Part shown: positions 1 through 26,163 of the stretch, in pieces
How positions within the stretch are numbered: position 1 is the stretch's first letter
Layout: every line of letters begins with the position of its first letter
Position numbers and translations under genes: made by a program
Notes under the pieces: model-generated
Databases searched by the model: none
What the model was told of the DNA's origin: nothing
Seen by the model: only the letters and a program-made list of their open reading frames with translations
IMG/VR virus record: IMGVR_UViG_3300022752_004038
Location: 1-27,808 of that record
Direction: 5' to 3' (one strand)
DNA: 27,808 nt
DNA from: a virus

Positions 1-165
1 AATTTGGACTGGTTTGCCTTCTTGGCACCGCTGCGTCTCACGGTTGTATTCCGGTTGGTCAACCCACTCCACATGGGCGTAGTCAGCCATACCAGCCGGG
101 TCAATATGGATATCCCCAATGTGACGAGGATACTCACCAGTCGATAGTTTGATATAAGCGCTCAT
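1..165 (-). CDS. Small tail-fibre-associated protein, partial (N-terminal 55 residues)
   Basis: An open frame on the minus strand starts with ATG at 165 and runs off the left edge without a stop. The protein begins MSAYIKLSTGEYPRHIGD and contains a stretch around PEYNRETQRCQEG. The YIKL-S/T-TGEYPR opening resembles small proteins found beside tail fibre and tail assembly chaperone genes in aquatic myoviruses; this is recalled from the family style and was not searched. The start codon overlaps the stop of the beta-propeller gene by four bases (ATGA), so the two are probably translationally coupled and belong to the host-recognition cassette. The piece is richer in GC than the baseplate genes. 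The function is unknown; a role in fibre assembly is a guess from position. Confidence 0.7.
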   Translation of the reverse strand, partial: MSAYIKLSTGEYPRHIGDIHIDPAGMADYAHVEWVDQPEYNRETQRCQEGKPVQI

Positions 166-1478
166 ATTGTCGTCACCGAGGAAGTGAGGGTGCCAGCAGC
201 ATCAGCACGCGATGTGGAGGATGATGTAAATGAAGTTGCAGAAACTGTATATGTCGATGATGAATCAGATGCCGTTGGAGTATCTATTGTTTGAGAAGAA
301 GCAGCATAAGTCAGCGATATACCGCCGACCGTATATGTACCAGTTTTTGAACCGTCATTTGGCAACTTTGCAATAAAAATATCTTGGTTGCTACCAGTAT
401 AAATCCGGCCAGCAACATACAAATTATTTGATATATCTACAGCAATACTTATTGCATTTGATTGGCCAAAGTTGCTTGTAGTGGTTATATATCTTTGCCA
501 TTGAATAGTCCCAGTAGAATTATACTTTGCCAAAAACATTCTACTAAAACCACTAGCATAACCAGATATATAAACATTACCAATTGAATCAGTAACAACT
601 GACGACGCTGTGCTTAATGAAACTCTCCTTTGCCATTGCAAAGTTCCACTTGAATCATATTTAGCAAGAAAAATATTAGCATCACCACCATTATCTGAAG
701 TGCCAGTTACATAAACATTGCCACTAGAGTCTACTGCGCAACCAGTGCCCCCTGTATCACTACCATTTACTAATAAAGATTTTTGCCACTGCACGGCAAA
801 TGAACTATTATATTTTATAATAGACGCCCGGAAAGGTGATGTCACTCCACTTCTTCCTGTTGTGTATATATTTCCAGAGGAGTCAACAATAATTGTTGCA
901 GCATTAGCATTTGCATATCCAATTTCGTTTTGAAATTGAACAGTGCCAGACGAATTATATTTAATAACTTCAAAATTGCCGTTTTGGTTATTACCAAAAA
1001 CATAAATATTACTAGAAGAATCTATTGCAACTGCATTTGGTCCATTTGGTGTTACATATTGAGTAACGCCCATATTACCCAAAGTTTTTTGCCATTGGAT
1101 TGTTCCACTTGAATTATATTTAGCAGCAACATTAAAACCTGCAGTTGAACCGCCGTCCCTGCCAGCAGCATAAACGTTTCCAGACGAATCTACCGCAACG
1201 CCTCTGAAATCAACTGACGAACCGCCAGATAAAACACTTTGCCACTGAATAGTTCCTGAATTATTATATTTAGCAACTACTGCATTATCATTCGTTCCAT
1301 CATAAGTGCTTCCAGAGATATATATGTCGCCCGGACTGGTGACAGTAATTGCATACCCAGTATCATCTCCAAAACCCCTTCTCAAAAGTCCCATCCAATA
1401 CGGACCGCCGATGCCGGTCAGGGCAGTAAACCCAAACCCTCTAGCTGATGCTGCTCCACGAGTACCGAGTAATGGCAT
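162..1478 (-). CDS. Seven-repeat SBBP-type beta-propeller tail protein, probable host-recognition protein
   Basis: This 438-residue protein contains seven repeats of about 40-50 residues of the SBBP (beta-propeller) type, with the pattern VDSSGNVYxxG...AKYxSSGTIQWQ. They begin near residues 41, 92, 148, 194, 246, 293 and 343. Seven repeats fit a seven-bladed propeller. The last repeat lacks the closing xxxQWQ strand, while the N-terminal segment around PYWMGLL (26-32) looks like that missing strand, so the ring may close by an N-to-C 'velcro'. The first 25 residues (MPLLGTRGAASARGFG) are of a type seen at the start of phage tail proteins. The last 60 residues are rich in Ser and Thr. The start at 1478 has an AAGGA ribosome site about nine bases upstream. 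The gene follows the 167-aa fibre gene after 11 bases. A receptor-binding or virion-decoration role is inferred from fold and position; no enzyme motif is seen. Confidence 0.85.
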   Translation of the reverse strand: MPLLGTRGAASARGFGFTALTGIGGPYWMGLLRRGFGDDTGYAITVTSPGDIYISGSTYDGTNDNAVVAKYNNSGTIQWQSVLSGGSSVDFRGVAVDSSGNVYAAGRDGGSTAGFNVAAKYNSSGTIQWQKTLGNMGVTQYVTPNGPNAVAIDSSSNIYVFGNNQNGNFEVIKYNSSGTVQFQNEIGYANANAATIIVDSSGNIYTTGRSGVTSPFRASIIKYNSSFAVQWQKSLLVNGSDTGGTGCAVDSSGNVYVTGTSDNGGDANIFLAKYDSSGTLQWQRRVSLSTASSVVTDSIGNVYISGYASGFSRMFLAKYNSTGTIQWQRYITTTSNFGQSNAISIAVDISNNLYVAGRIYTGSNQDIFIAKLPNDGSKTGTYTVGGISLTYAASSQTIDTPTASDSSSTYTVSATSFTSSSTSRADAAGTLTSSVTTI

Positions 1479-1489
1479 AACTATATTCC

Positions 1490-1993
1490 TTAAGCAAACT
1501 TGGTCAATGAAGCAAACACTGTATAAGCAGAACTACCTGTCTTTACAATAGTGAATAAGTACATGTCAATGCTCGATGCATTACCAGAAGTTGGAGCAGT
1601 ACCACCTTGCCACTTTGGAGTAACAGTAATACCATCGATCTGGAATACGTTATTGTAGTAAGCAGTGGCACCGTTGGTGTTCATGAATGCAACACTGAGG
1701 GATTCACCAGTATTCATGATGCTGTTTAGTGTATTTGAACCATCGCCGCGAACGTTTAGTGTAAAGTTAGCGGAAGCGCTGGTAGTATAATATAATACAC
1801 CTTGAGTTAAAGCATCAAAGTTAATAGTACCGGTTGCTGCAGTTGCAGATACGGTAGTAACTTCACGAACACCTTTAATAATATCATTAGTCAATGTCTT
1901 ATTAGTTAGTGTTTGAGTATCGGTAGTGCCAACAAATGAACCAGCTGGTACACTAACACCAACTGCTGCGGCTAAAGATGATGCTTTACTCAT
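1490..1993 (-). CDS. Fibre-like structural protein with TLTNKTLT motif
   Basis: This is a 167-residue virion-type protein. Residues about 25-45 carry the TDTQTLTNKTLTNDI motif common in phage tail fibres, followed by a short beta-rich domain (INFDALTQGVLYYTTSAS...) ending in MYLFTIVKTGSSAYTVFASL. The same layout, TLTNKTLT then xxxREV/RETV then a beta domain closing with a 'time-course' strand, forms the C-terminal part of the 401-aa fibre at 4377-5582, so the two are probably paralogous modules. The start at 1993 has a strong CGGAG ribosome site seven bases upstream and lies about 30 bases downstream of an exact late promoter motif. It may be a separate fibre tip or decoration subunit. The exact role cannot be read from sequence. 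Confidence 0.75.
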   Translation of the reverse strand: MSKASSLAAAVGVSVPAGSFVGTTDTQTLTNKTLTNDIIKGVREVTTVSATAATGTINFDALTQGVLYYTTSASANFTLNVRGDGSNTLNSIMNTGESLSVAFMNTNGATAYYNNVFQIDGITVTPKWQGGTAPTSGNASSIDMYLFTIVKTGSSAYTVFASLTKFA

Positions 1994-2481: not shown

Positions 2482-4380
2482 CTAAGCAATTGCGAGGAAG
2501 ATGTAGGTTGCGGCAGATACGTTAATATTAGTTGCAGCAAGTTGATTAACAATGAAGCCTGAGCTATCTGGATCAATACTATCATCAGTAGTAACATCAG
2601 CAGCAGTAGTATTAAGACTTAAGTGTGGATCATTGGCAGTTACAATACCGCGAGCTGTATCCCAGACGTACCAATCACCAGTGGAGTCAGTACGCTTAAT
2701 CAGGACAAACCGTGCACCACCAGTGAATCCACAGTTGATGGTTTGTGTTGTGCCGTTGCCAGTGTATGAGCCTACTTTGGAAACGCCAGCAACGGTGGCA
2801 AAGAGGTAAGTGACCATGTTGTAGCCACTCAACGTATTGTTCACAAAGAATTGCGTAGATGTTGGCGTTTTATTGTCCCAACCATTATTTGTATCTTGTG
2901 CTGCCGTTTGGTCAAGATAAAGAATCTTTGTGTTTCCAATCGCCGCCGCATAAACCATCCAACCTTCCCAAGTGCCGTTACGCACTTTACGAATCATTAA
3001 TTCCGGGACAACACCTAAGTTGTGGTTCAATGTTTGTGCAGCACCTGTTGTAGTCCAGCAAACCTCATCAAAGAAGCCGGGGGCGCGGCGCATCCAATAG
3101 AAGATTGACCCAGTTGTGAATGTGTTGTAGTCGCTAACTTCCCCGACATGCAGTTTTAACTGGTCGTAATTGAATTTAACAAAATAATTTCCTGATCCTG
3201 TAATTTCTGCGCCAGTCGTATTTGTCGCCAAGTATTGCGTATTTCCGCGCAACCTGTCGTAGTCAAACCAGTTGTAACTTGAAGATGTTGTGTTCTTTGC
3301 CCAAAACGTATCGGCTGGAAACGCTGTATTTACAACGTTAATAGTTTCCCCAACTGGCCGCGAATATGCTTCATACACACTCGTCCCACTCGTCGGCACT
3401 TTCATCGGGCCGCGACGGATGGCGATGTAGATGTATGAAGTAGATATGTACTGACTTACAGTAAAACCAGTCGCATTGATGGCAAAGCCGCCGTTTACGG
3501 TTTCTGCCTGTGTTGCCCCGGCATAGAGTTCTGCGGCTTGCGCCGCAGTAGCCGTCAGCGCCCGCATATTGTCTACAAGTTGAAAATATTGGTTGTTTGC
3601 TAGGTCTTTGACAAGCAGCCATTGCGGCTCATACCCCAAATTCACCGTTGCATTGCCACTGCCATCAGTCGTAAACGACCCACACGAAATCACATTGTCC
3701 GTACCCGTCAGGCCAAAGCCACCTGCATTGTGGGCAAAGAGGTAGGCAACGTAGGTGCCGCCAGAGGCGTTAGTGGTAACGTTGCCGACATAGAAATTTG
3801 TCGCATCCTCAATTGTTGTACCCCAAACATTGGTGTACGTTGCAACTGCATCGGTCGTGTTCAAAAGCAGTGCTTGACTTGTACCCAACCCCGGTGCCTT
3901 GCAATACCAATTAGCAGCCGTGTTGGTTTGCTTTACGACAATGAAACCGGGGGCGCTGCCTAACGCATGTGAAATTGCTCGGTTCTGTGTTCCATTCCCA
4001 GTATACGTCACAACATCAAAGAACTTGGCTTGCTTGCGGAATGTCCATGAGGCGAAAGTGACGCCACTATTGCCAAATCCGTTTGATGACGGGGCAGAAA
4101 AACCGTTGGCGTTAAAAGTTAGCGTCCCATCGTTTTGCTGTGCGCCAGTGGTATCTGACCGTAAATTCTGACTACCTCCGCGCATGGTGTCTGTTAGGAA
4201 ATTGTTGTTAACGGCACTTCTTGACTTAATCCAAACCAACCCACCATTGGTGGACAAGTTAATACCATTGGTAATGGTCTGCGTTGACCCATTGCCCGTA
4301 TATAGGTAGGTGCTGAAGACATCTTCGATGTAGTTAGCAGCGGTGCTACTACCTGCCGAGCTCATTAATAATTTGGTCAT
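2482..4380 (-). CDS. Tandem-repeat tail adhesin / fibre protein
   Basis: This 632-residue protein is built of about six related repeats of 90-100 residues, starting near residues 26, 123, 229, 345, 438 and 535. Each repeat has a YTGNGTxQTI-like opening, a 'P-x-hydrophobic-V/I-K' strand (GLVWIKSRS, GFIVVKQTN, QWLLVKDLA, ELMIRKVRN, FVLIKRTDS) and a closing strand (YVAYLFA, YIYIAIRRG, YIFLAIA). Repeats of this kind occur in tail fibres or adhesins of aquatic phages. The ATG overlaps the stop of the 401-aa fibre by four bases. The stretch encoding the N-terminal two thirds (about 3000-4380) is clearly richer in G and C than the AT-rich 3' end and neighbours, which suggests a mosaic origin. A receptor-binding role is inferred; no catalytic motif or trimerisation domain could be identified. 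Confidence 0.8.
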   Translation of the reverse strand: MTKLLMSSAGSSTAANYIEDVFSTYLYTGNGSTQTITNGINLSTNGGLVWIKSRSAVNNNFLTDTMRGGSQNLRSDTTGAQQNDGTLTFNANGFSAPSSNGFGNSGVTFASWTFRKQAKFFDVVTYTGNGTQNRAISHALGSAPGFIVVKQTNTAANWYCKAPGLGTSQALLLNTTDAVATYTNVWGTTIEDATNFYVGNVTTNASGGTYVAYLFAHNAGGFGLTGTDNVISCGSFTTDGSGNATVNLGYEPQWLLVKDLANNQYFQLVDNMRALTATAAQAAELYAGATQAETVNGGFAINATGFTVSQYISTSYIYIAIRRGPMKVPTSGTSVYEAYSRPVGETINVVNTAFPADTFWAKNTTSSSYNWFDYDRLRGNTQYLATNTTGAEITGSGNYFVKFNYDQLKLHVGEVSDYNTFTTGSIFYWMRRAPGFFDEVCWTTTGAAQTLNHNLGVVPELMIRKVRNGTWEGWMVYAAAIGNTKILYLDQTAAQDTNNGWDNKTPTSTQFFVNNTLSGYNMVTYLFATVAGVSKVGSYTGNGTTQTINCGFTGGARFVLIKRTDSTGDWYVWDTARGIVTANDPHLSLNTTAADVTTDDSIDPDSSGFIVNQLAATNINVSAATYIFLAIA

Positions 4381-5582
4381 GCGTTTAATCCTGCAGTAAA
4401 TGCTTGATAAGTAGTACCGCCATCGGTAGTATATGCTACAAATGTATCAACCTTACCAGTTACGGCAGTTAATGTTGGAGCTATACCACCTGGGAACTTA
4501 AATGCACTATTAAATGTAACAGCGGCTGAACCGGTTGTTACAAACTTAACAGCAAATTCAAAATAAGTACCTGATGCTGGAGGATTAGTTGGTGCACCAA
4601 TTGTTACAGTACCGCTTGATGGTAGGGTAACAACGAAAACGTTTGCAGTGCTAAGATCAAGAGTAACAGTAGTACCAGCAGTAGGACTAAATGTTGATAC
4701 TGTTTCACGAATTGATGTTGTAACTGGGCGGGTTAGTGTCTTATTGGTAAGAGTATCAGTTGTAGCACGACCAACTAATGTATCAGTTGATGTTGGTAGT
4801 GTTAAGGTACCGCTATTGCTGATAGTTGAAATAACTGGTGAAGTTAGTGTTGGTGAATTTGCAAGTACAACTGAACCTGAACCTGTTGTTGATGGAGTAA
4901 ATGCGCCAGTTTGTGAATAAACTTGCCATGTAGTACCATCATAAAGCATTTGGACACTACTACCAGTAATATCGCATACAAGGTTTTCAGCAACACCTTC
5001 GATTGTTGAACCGTTTCTATTGATGGTTAGGTTATTAGTTGCCCATGAACCACCATCAGCAATCCATACTTGAGTACCAGTTGCTGGAGTTGCTGGAAGA
5101 TTTACTGAGAAAGCACCGGCAGTTGTATCAGCAATAATACCTTGCTTATCAGTAAGAGTTGTTGTGGCAATAACCTTTGTGTAAGTAATACCACCTGATA
5201 CTGCTGCCCAAACTGGAGCGCCTGTGCCGCTTGATGTTAATACTTGGCCAAGTGTACCCGCAGCAGTATAAGCATGTGCTGTACCTGTGCCATAACCAAT
5301 ACCACCAGAAGTTGGGGTTGCAGTACTATTAGTACCACCGTTTGCAATTGCTACAACACCGCTAACATTAGTGGCAGTAGTGGCAGTAGTAGCATTACCT
5401 GATAGAGTAGCGGTAATTGTACCAGCTGAGAAGTTACCTGATGCATCACGTTGAACTACATAATTAGCGGTATTTGCCGATGATTTAAGGCCTAATTCAG
5501 TATTTAGACCAGAAAAGTTATTATCAACTTCAGTGCTTGTTAATGGAGCACCTTTAACAGACCTTAAAGTAATTGTTGCCAT
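4377..5582 (-). CDS. Tail fibre-like protein
   Basis: This 401-residue protein has a classic phage fibre organisation. The N-terminus (MATITLRSVKGAPLTSTEVDNN) is the common attachment-type start with the 'EVDNNFxxLN' motif. It is followed by VVQRDASGNFSAGTITATL and SGNATTATTATNV, low-complexity shaft motifs frequent in collagen-like or beta-helical fibres. A GGTN-type segment follows, then the TDTLTNKTLTRP motif and a beta-rich C-terminal domain ending FVAYTTDGGTTYQAFTAGL. That C-terminal module resembles the 167-aa protein at 1490-1993. The start at 5582 has an AAAGGA ribosome site eight bases upstream and two late promoters 40-100 bases upstream. It heads the adhesin-chaperone operon and is probably the fibre part that carries or anchors the 632-aa adhesin. 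Confidence 0.85.
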   Translation of the reverse strand: MATITLRSVKGAPLTSTEVDNNFSGLNTELGLKSSANTANYVVQRDASGNFSAGTITATLSGNATTATTATNVSGVVAIANGGTNSTATPTSGGIGYGTGTAHAYTAAGTLGQVLTSSGTGAPVWAAVSGGITYTKVIATTTLTDKQGIIADTTAGAFSVNLPATPATGTQVWIADGGSWATNNLTINRNGSTIEGVAENLVCDITGSSVQMLYDGTTWQVYSQTGAFTPSTTGSGSVVLANSPTLTSPVISTISNSGTLTLPTSTDTLVGRATTDTLTNKTLTRPVTTSIRETVSTFSPTAGTTVTLDLSTANVFVVTLPSSGTVTIGAPTNPPASGTYFEFAVKFVTTGSAAVTFNSAFKFPGGIAPTLTAVTGKVDTFVAYTTDGGTTYQAFTAGLNA

Positions 5583-25392: not shown

Positions 25393-26163
25393 TTAAGAGA
25401 TTTTTCTACCTCTTTTATAGCCTTCACCTGGACATTCTTTAGATCTAATAGCATTTATGCCATTTGTCCACCACAATTTACCTTTTTGCGATGGTGGTTT
25501 TATTCCTCTTTTCTTATATTCTTCACTCTTTTTTTTCTTATATTCTTCACTATGTTTTTTTCCATAATTAATAGAAACCCAAACACCATTTTTAATATTT
25601 TCATGATTCAAATCAACTAATCCAATTATTTCACCAGTAATATAATCTTTTACTACCATTTTGCCTTTTTTTGATTCACTAATTTTTTTATATGTTTCAA
25701 AATCATTATGCACACCATATCTTGGATTAAGTTTTCCACTTCTATCTTTTCCATACCAATAATTTCGTTCACCCGGTTGGCCCTTTTTACGATTTATTTT
25801 TTGTTGTTCTTCTTGTGATAAAGAATTCCACCATTCATTATATTTTTGTTTTCTTATTTGTTTTGATAATGAATTTATGTGAGTCCATCCACCATCTAAT
25901 TCTTCAATTTTTAAATTTGCCCATTCAAGAGATTCTACAATATTATTTTTAATACTAAATTCTTTAGCAAAAAGTTTACATTCATTTTTATCTAAAAAGC
26001 TAGCAATTATTTCTGTACTTACATCATTACCATGTTTTTCTAAATGCTTATTCCAATAAACACCCGATCCTTTATACTTGTATGGGTCTTTTGACACCGT
26101 TTTTCCAAAATATTTTAATCCAGTTTTATTGTGGGTTTTTATATACAAATGTATAGGTTTCAT
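25393..26163 (-). CDS. GIY-YIG-type homing endonuclease with NUMOD3 motifs (Seg-like)
   Basis: This 256-residue protein has an N-terminal GIY-YIG-like nuclease domain: HLYIKTHNKTGLKYFGKT at residues 5-22 (LYI and YFG in place of GIY and YIG), then YKGSGVYWNKHLEKHG and a likely catalytic Glu at about 68 in FAKEFSIKNN. The middle carries a NUMOD3-type DNA-binding motif (GERNYWYGKDRSGKLNPRYG, 131-150). A Lys-rich linker leads to WWTNGINAIRSKECPGEGYK near 231-250, a module repeated in phage homing endonucleases. It has an AAGG ribosome site and a late promoter 36 bases upstream. It is inserted between gp48 and gp4, antisense to gp4, with a gp4 fragment at its 3' side. The likely target is a gp4 gene of related phages. 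Confidence 0.88.
   Translation of the reverse strand: MKPIHLYIKTHNKTGLKYFGKTVSKDPYKYKGSGVYWNKHLEKHGNDVSTEIIASFLDKNECKLFAKEFSIKNNIVESLEWANLKIEELDGGWTHINSLSKQIRKQKYNEWWNSLSQEEQQKINRKKGQPGERNYWYGKDRSGKLNPRYGVHNDFETYKKISESKKGKMVVKDYITGEIIGLVDLNHENIKNGVWVSINYGKKHSEEYKKKKSEEYKKRGIKPPSQKGKLWWTNGINAIRSKECPGEGYKRGRKIS

Follow-up and report, generated by a model that had tools for sequence, protein, structure and literature searches.

The window analysed here is a 27,808-nucleotide stretch of viral DNA (IMG/VR record IMGVR_UViG_3300022752_004038, positions 1 to 27,808) that begins with a tail fibre cassette. The gene in question encodes a predicted beta-propeller protein whose N-terminus, ahead of the propeller, consists of just a tag and a short linker, the tag being part of no blade; directly upstream lies the gene for a putative fibre-tip domain, denoted the dock (Table 1). 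The propeller seems to be one of many exchangeable modules, or heads, that carry the same tag and are encoded directly after the same fibre-tip domain. The tail fibre setting proposed in an initial annotation of this DNA is supported by the Pfam and PHROG matches of the neighbouring genes.

Table 1. Features of the propeller gene and its cassette (aa, amino acids; bp, base pairs; HMM, hidden Markov model; ORF, open reading frame; pLDDT, predicted local distance difference test)
Feature	Positions	Strand	Basis
Propeller gene: tag, predicted seven-bladed ring and Ser/Thr-rich tail; 438 aa, ATG start	162..1478	-	ORF, Pfam, model
N-terminal tag MPLLGTRGAASARGFGF, residues 1-17, common to unrelated head modules	1428..1478	-	tag search, translations
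Predicted closing strand WMGLL, residues 28-32, assigned as fourth strand of blade 7	1383..1397	-	model strand; D-strand register
Seven SBBP repeats, residues 44-388	315..1349	-	7 HMM domains; structural matches
Conserved motif KLPNDGSKTGTY past the last blade, residues 371-382	333..368	-	alignment A3; identity 0.51
Ser/Thr-rich C-terminal tail, residues 399-438	165..284	-	model pLDDT <50
Putative fibre-tip (dock) gene, 167 aa, PHROG 5906 (function unknown), 11 bp before the propeller gene	1490..1993	-	PHROG, neighbour analysis, model
Dock domain proper, last 130 residues	1493..1882	-	alignment A2, 20 sequences
Tail fibre assembly chaperone (Phage_tail_APC), 148 aa	2027..2473	-	Pfam 9.1e-19
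DUF7483 fibre protein, 632 aa	2482..4380	-	Pfam 1.1e-83
401-aa fibre protein, upstream of the DUF7483 gene	4377..5582	-	PHROG tail fibre matches

A seven-repeat protein and its predicted fold

The initial annotation had counted seven SBBP-type repeats in the protein, and the same number is recovered as seven HMM domains and as seven strand groups in the structural model. The Pfam SBBP family matches the protein above its cut-off (70.8 bits against 20.5; E 8.6e-20), with five SBBP stretches at E 0.1 and one at E 0.001. An HMM derived from the seven regular repeats, 51-52 residues each, of a relative (L027) detects seven domains (residues 44-88, 93-136, 150-192, 196-236, 246-285, 296-334 and 345-388) that score 21.3-46.8 bits with independent E values of at most 1.2e-7; the best domain score obtained with this HMM in 200 shuffles of residues 18-438 was 9.9 bits. 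Autocorrelation rises above that of shuffled sequences at the two-repeat periods of 98 and 102 only.

The AlphaFold model of the protein, computed from the single sequence, is of moderate confidence (pLDDT 65.6; predicted template modelling score, pTM, 0.72), with two of the five models scoring alike and three lower. It consists of a strand at residues 28-32, six four-stranded blades and a three-stranded seventh blade (340-347, 353-361 and 364-372), past which come a short hairpin (380-393) and a tail of low confidence. CylK is the best match by fold as well as by sequence, and tops the VIA-align comparison (Z 38.6 over 340 residues); the next matches, most of which cover model residues 25-379, are the seven-bladed designer protein WRAP-T, YncE and RACK1-type WD40 rings, the latter two presumably also seven-bladed. 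Foldseek also matches the Photorhabdus PLL/PHL lectins.

The seventh repeat lacks the QW-type fourth strand, and the chain instead runs on as KLPNDGSKTGTY. The motif of the D strand, as found in the six complete repeats, can be aligned with the N-terminal segment GGPYWMGLLRRGF in a single register (BLOSUM sum 19, the next being -27); a stretch of the Ser/Thr-rich tail also scores 10 against this motif. In L027, the N-terminal likeness is plainer by eye (FWIATLGGASNDYGYGIAVD vs IQWQRTFGGGSSDFGYGIAID). RACK1-type rings are closed by an N-terminal strand. The model strand at residues 28-32, its D-strand register and the alignment with RACK1-type rings from residue 25 onward all favour the ring closed by its own N-terminus that the initial annotation had predicted from the segment YWMGLL, so that strand 28-32 would pair with blade 7. 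We accept seven blades and a probable N-terminal closure because of the repeat HMM, the model and the structural matches to rings over residues 25-379, and the protein is, with high confidence, predicted to form a seven-bladed ring. The structure prediction for which the initial annotation had called yielded neither six nor eight blades nor an open solenoid; an open solenoid and other blade numbers were rejected on the basis of the model, the structural matches and the repeat HMM.

Several observations count against this assignment. The propeller model derives from one sequence, no residue reaches a pLDDT of 90, and three of the five models score 50 or less. The Foldseek list is mixed, with propellers lower down that, going by their names, presumably have six, eight and nine blades. 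All seven repeats are clear by HMM only in the window protein, L027 and L167; L168 has seven, one of them weak, and the six other tagged propellers give four to seven domains, many insignificant.

The N-terminal tag and the dock gene

With the propeller alone as the query against viral contigs, three stretches matched a peptide and none was confirmed as a relative, whereas a search with the tag did yield relatives. This search, with a degenerate DNA pattern for the peptide GAASARGFGF against IMG/VR viral contigs, retrieved 58 stretches, the translations of which show that the proteins starting with the tag differ widely in kind. The peptide GAASARGFG has 34 DNA spellings among 74 loci, and all nine third codon positions vary; since the peptide was the criterion for picking the loci, it is the variation in DNA alone that carries information, and no fixed DNA site is kept in the tag-coding sequence. 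The possibility that the tag is a signal peptide was rejected, as no hydrophobic stretch is apparent by eye.

The association between the tag and the dock gene is reciprocal. Starting from the tag, 54 of the 58 stretches were read by script, and in 50 of these, the tagged gene is preceded by a dock-domain gene of the same orientation. The distance between the two is -1 to 21 bp in 47 cases and 430-559 bp in three, where one ORF of at least 129 aa intervenes; in the other four stretches, the contig extends upstream by no more than 190 bp. The remaining four stretches (L008, L028, L046 and L049), which carry a slightly different tag, were treated separately, and in each, the end of a dock gene directly precedes the tag. 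At a tag score of at least 8, the tag-first set comprises 49 pairs with 36 distinct heads, some loci having identical proteins. Starting from the domain, an alignment of 20 docks led to 597 confirmed viral loci, the nearest 80 of which were analysed: a tagged start (score of at least 8) comes within 25 bp after 74 of the 81 dock genes with a stop codon, with 72 distinct heads. Among the seven exceptions, L100 reaches the contig end, and in L067, L071 and L125, the tagged gene comes one ORF further on. On contigs of metagenome-assembled genomes, a tagged gene follows the dock in 12 of 13 cases, nine within 25 bp and three at 86-136 bp. The pair is also present in cultured phages, namely, the Roseobacter phages CRP-3 and CRP-738. 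By way of control, 13 of 846 other ORFs of at least 150 aa reach a tag score of 8, near-identical training tags having been excluded when scoring test genes, not when scoring control genes; ten of the 12 control ORFs shown are themselves tagged genes behind an inserted ORF, a contig edge or a dock fragment. Shuffled N-termini reach this score in 6 of 158 cases.

The dock domain itself is matched by the PHROG 5906 profile over residues 42-166 of the gene product (93.1 bits, E 4.1e-26), and an AlphaFold model built from 74 aligned sequences is beta-rich at residues 46-166 (mean pLDDT 88.7). Of 162 segments, 160 have the dock at their very C-terminus, and both exceptions belong to a single contig represented twice (L003 and L111). 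Searching the PDB by sequence with the dock profile returned no hit below E 0.5. The fold matches are the Pa223 capsid spike (Z 7.7) and, at Z 4.8-6.3, the KP1 baseplate, CBA120 TSP4, the Solidus tailspike and T4 gp9; these weak matches may reflect a common arrangement and perhaps nothing more. In BFVD, several dock relatives carry a collagen repeat protein annotation, in keeping with a trimeric fibre.

The link between tag and dock has to be set against a series of less favourable results. In the domain-first set, L086, L095 and L133 have no clear tag after the dock. In public phage records, a clear tag (score 8) follows three of nine dock genes, and five of nine at a score of 2.5; the cyanophage and actinophage cases are diverged. 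In L010, L048 and L053, a second dock gene is present, and what comes after it is a 102-aa ORF of one kind that lacks the tag. The 80 loci reached through the domain represent just the nearest relatives, and the tag search had already led to the contigs of at least two of them (L092/L004 and L111/L003). With identical pairs dropped, dock and tag show no covariation across 110 distinct pairs (rho 0.03; 297 of 999 permutations as high) and modest covariation in the 77 domain-first pairs (rho 0.23; 0 of 999 permutations as high); the latter could stem from shared descent, and covariation is not used as support here. Finally, neighbours in one cassette need not touch.

Some variants of this gene order are worth recording. 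One ORF separates the dock from the tagged head in L036, L125, L022, L047, L067 and L071, and in L036 and L125, this ORF has paired cysteines and looks, by eye, like an HNH-type endonuclease. The gene past the dock in L133 (after position 3094) has, by eye, the appearance of a sulfotransferase and not of a tagged head. Dock genes are also present in a bacterial genome, that of Candidatus Magnetaquicoccus inordinatus (L150, L151 and L153), where they are followed by Gly-rich proteins with, judging by eye, a signal-peptide-like stretch before a tag-like segment.

Elsewhere in the window, the gene for the 401-aa fibre protein overlaps the start of the DUF7483 gene, the product of which begins with MTKLLMSSAGSSTAAN. 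The domain at the end of the 401-aa protein is weakly related to the dock, with an hhalign E value of 0.0025 and a probability of 11.7 over 104 columns. Positions 2482-5582 could thus hold a second dock/head pair, the end of the 401-aa protein being a possible diverged dock. In L188 and L189, past position 4243, relatives of this end are directly followed by laminin-G-like heads (by eye) that begin with MMNNGEQFFNTAAGG, perhaps a different class of tag. A PHROG homing endonuclease match (25393-26163, E 4e-6) adjoins the baseplate genes. A search with the large DUF4815 gene found two relatives, in one of which five gene products are 100% identical over the shared part, which ends inside the DUF4815 gene.

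Diversity of tagged heads

The 126 distinct heads fall into 113 clusters at 80%. Pfam was run on 87 heads, picked by hand from these clusters and including L170, L174 and L175 as additions, and found Gly_rich_2 in 43, DUF7483 in seven, SBBP in six, Laminin_G_3 and SPRY in four each, and fn3 and NHL in one each. The classes assigned to heads by script are crude: the propellers L003 and L058, recognized by tblastn or BLAST, were classed 'other', and the long heads L088 and L102, Gly-rich at the start, were classed 'LamG'. Seven heads compared with PHROGs matched only proteins named as unknown, structural or tail fibre, and a PDB sequence search with one Gly-rich head gave no match at E 0.01.

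Heads of different kinds occur next to similar docks. L003 and L042 are 90% alike in their docks and 93% in their tags, with a propeller as the head of L003 and a Gly-rich head in L042. The gene order of the window is kept in L036, including DUF7483, the chaperone (76% identical) and the dock (64% identical), past which come an inserted ORF and then a tagged Gly-rich head where the window has the propeller. The DUF7483 module present in the window recurs elsewhere as a tagged head (L031 and L041). A natural fusion is found in L003 at 2507-3985 (the same contig as L111), where a single ORF of 493 aa comprises a dock-like domain and, running on from it, a Gly-rich head, and where no tag was seen; on the same contig, a tagged propeller also occurs with a regular dock gene. 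In this single case, the tag is thus present where the two parts are encoded separately and absent where they form one chain, as expected of an attachment device.

In an alignment of ten tagged propellers, the segment with the highest mean pairwise identity is the tag (0.71), followed by KLPNDGSKTGTY (0.51). Within the ring, identity is high in the AB and CD turns (0.41 and 0.36), the strands range from 0.15 to 0.21, and variation peaks in the BC and DA loops (0.14 and 0.10). The initial annotation had stated that loops invariant among phages with different hosts would speak against its proposal; the BC and DA loops vary among these ten propellers. In propellers, the BC and DA loops share one face, usually the ligand face. 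The pattern fits a predicted variable binding face; it is no proof of selection, because conservation of the AB and CD turns is a general feature of SBBP repeats.

Exchangeable heads and known adhesin systems

Computation shows the seven repeats, the predicted propeller fold, the tag with its reciprocal link to the dock gene, the diversity of heads and one natural fusion; physical binding of the tag to the dock, a trimeric dock, the position on the virion, and receptor binding with its ligand are inferred. We consider it likely that, taken as a whole, a self-closing seven-bladed propeller is a receptor-binding head at the tip of the tail fibre, exchangeable by virtue of tag and dock. Under this scheme, the fibre tip (the dock) would hold a detachable, exchangeable adhesin, here the propeller, with the variable BC and DA loops as its ligand face; the tag, which probably serves for attachment to the dock at the fibre tip, and the dock would both be kept while heads are swapped as units, be they propeller, Gly-rich, DUF7483, laminin-G or fn3 modules. 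Receptor binding by the propeller is likely, as predicted from its position and kind, and this reading is strengthened by the shared N-terminal tag and the upstream partner domain.

The tag might instead be a folding or recruitment signal, bound by the chaperone encoded at 2027-2473, or by the dock during assembly only, such that the propeller ends up elsewhere or leaves. A fibre assembly chaperone gene does lie in the cassette, T4 gp38 is a released chaperone according to PMC12892980, and in Pam3, a chaperone embraces the fibre tip, as described in PMC9608196. We nevertheless regard this as unlikely, given that the heads are lectin-like or Gly-rich modules and not chaperone families, that a dock-like domain and a head occur naturally fused, and that not all tag loci show a chaperone match, although many loci are fragmentary. 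Rather improbable, too, is an enzymatic role of the propeller, such as that of a glycan lyase or hydrolase, in place of a binding one. The top structural match, CylK, is an enzyme, the phage endosialidases K1F and phi92 have propeller domains (PMC4901313), and Vgb_lyase matches one of the 87 tagged heads; however, the match spans CylK residues 251-659 only, without its N-terminal part, no enzyme family reaches the curated Pfam cut-off for the window protein, and the same tag carries non-enzymatic modules. That the shared N-terminus is a site of recombination for head exchange, its peptide having no role in binding, would account for many different heads with the same start but is highly improbable, considering the 34 DNA spellings, the variation at all nine third codon positions of GAASARGFG and the missing tag where dock and head are fused.

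If the tag indeed attaches heads to the dock, these 17 residues would reveal receptor-binding proteins of uncultured phages from sequence alone and would explain how unrelated lectin-like modules reach the fibre tips of different phages. The pair also offers a simple biochemical test, namely, whether or not the tag binds the dock. We see an even chance that it is a widespread plug-and-socket standard of environmental tailed phages of more than one family, in which the small beta-rich C-terminal domain of a fibre takes any head with a short Gly/Ala-rich tag from a common pool that includes self-closing propellers. No recognizable description of the tag/dock pair was found in the open-access literature, judged by titles and the starts of abstracts.

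Propellers are employed by other phages in related ways. The receptor-binding protein Gp45 of phi11 contains a five-bladed propeller with proposed glycan binding and closure by its N-terminal strand; as described in PMC4901313, Gp45 differs from the window protein in blade number and in that its propeller resides within one trimeric chain with a stem and a tower, without a separate tag and dock. The same source reports a seven-bladed propeller, with suspected receptor binding, in gp131C of the myophage phiKZ, where it is the C-terminal domain of a larger protein; we compared it through general fold searches only. CylK differs from the window protein in being an enzyme with an extra N-terminal part, and the propeller fold spans many functions.

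The closest parallel is the gp38 adhesin. The gp38 gene is encoded directly after the fibre-tip gene. The same order is seen here, with the propeller gene 11 bp after the dock gene, and in 74 of the 81 domain-first cases. In MW202481, the gene that comes after the dock bears the annotation 'phage tail fiber adhesin gp38'. In T2-like gp37/gp38 systems (PP01 and S16), the N-terminus of gp38 contacts the fibre and the receptor domain is Gly-rich (PMC12892980), a kind of domain that is also frequent among the tagged heads. In that paper, however, 113 N-terminal residues of gp38 were exchanged, compared with the 17-residue attaching tag here, and the window protein has no gp37-binding N-terminal region of about 110 residues. 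Nor does it have the poly-glycine II receptor domain, being a predicted propeller where other tagged heads are Gly-rich. Unlike gp37/gp38, the heads described here include propellers and other folds, and their partner is the PHROG 5906 domain. By analogy, the system in the window would work like gp38, yet it is not a gp38.
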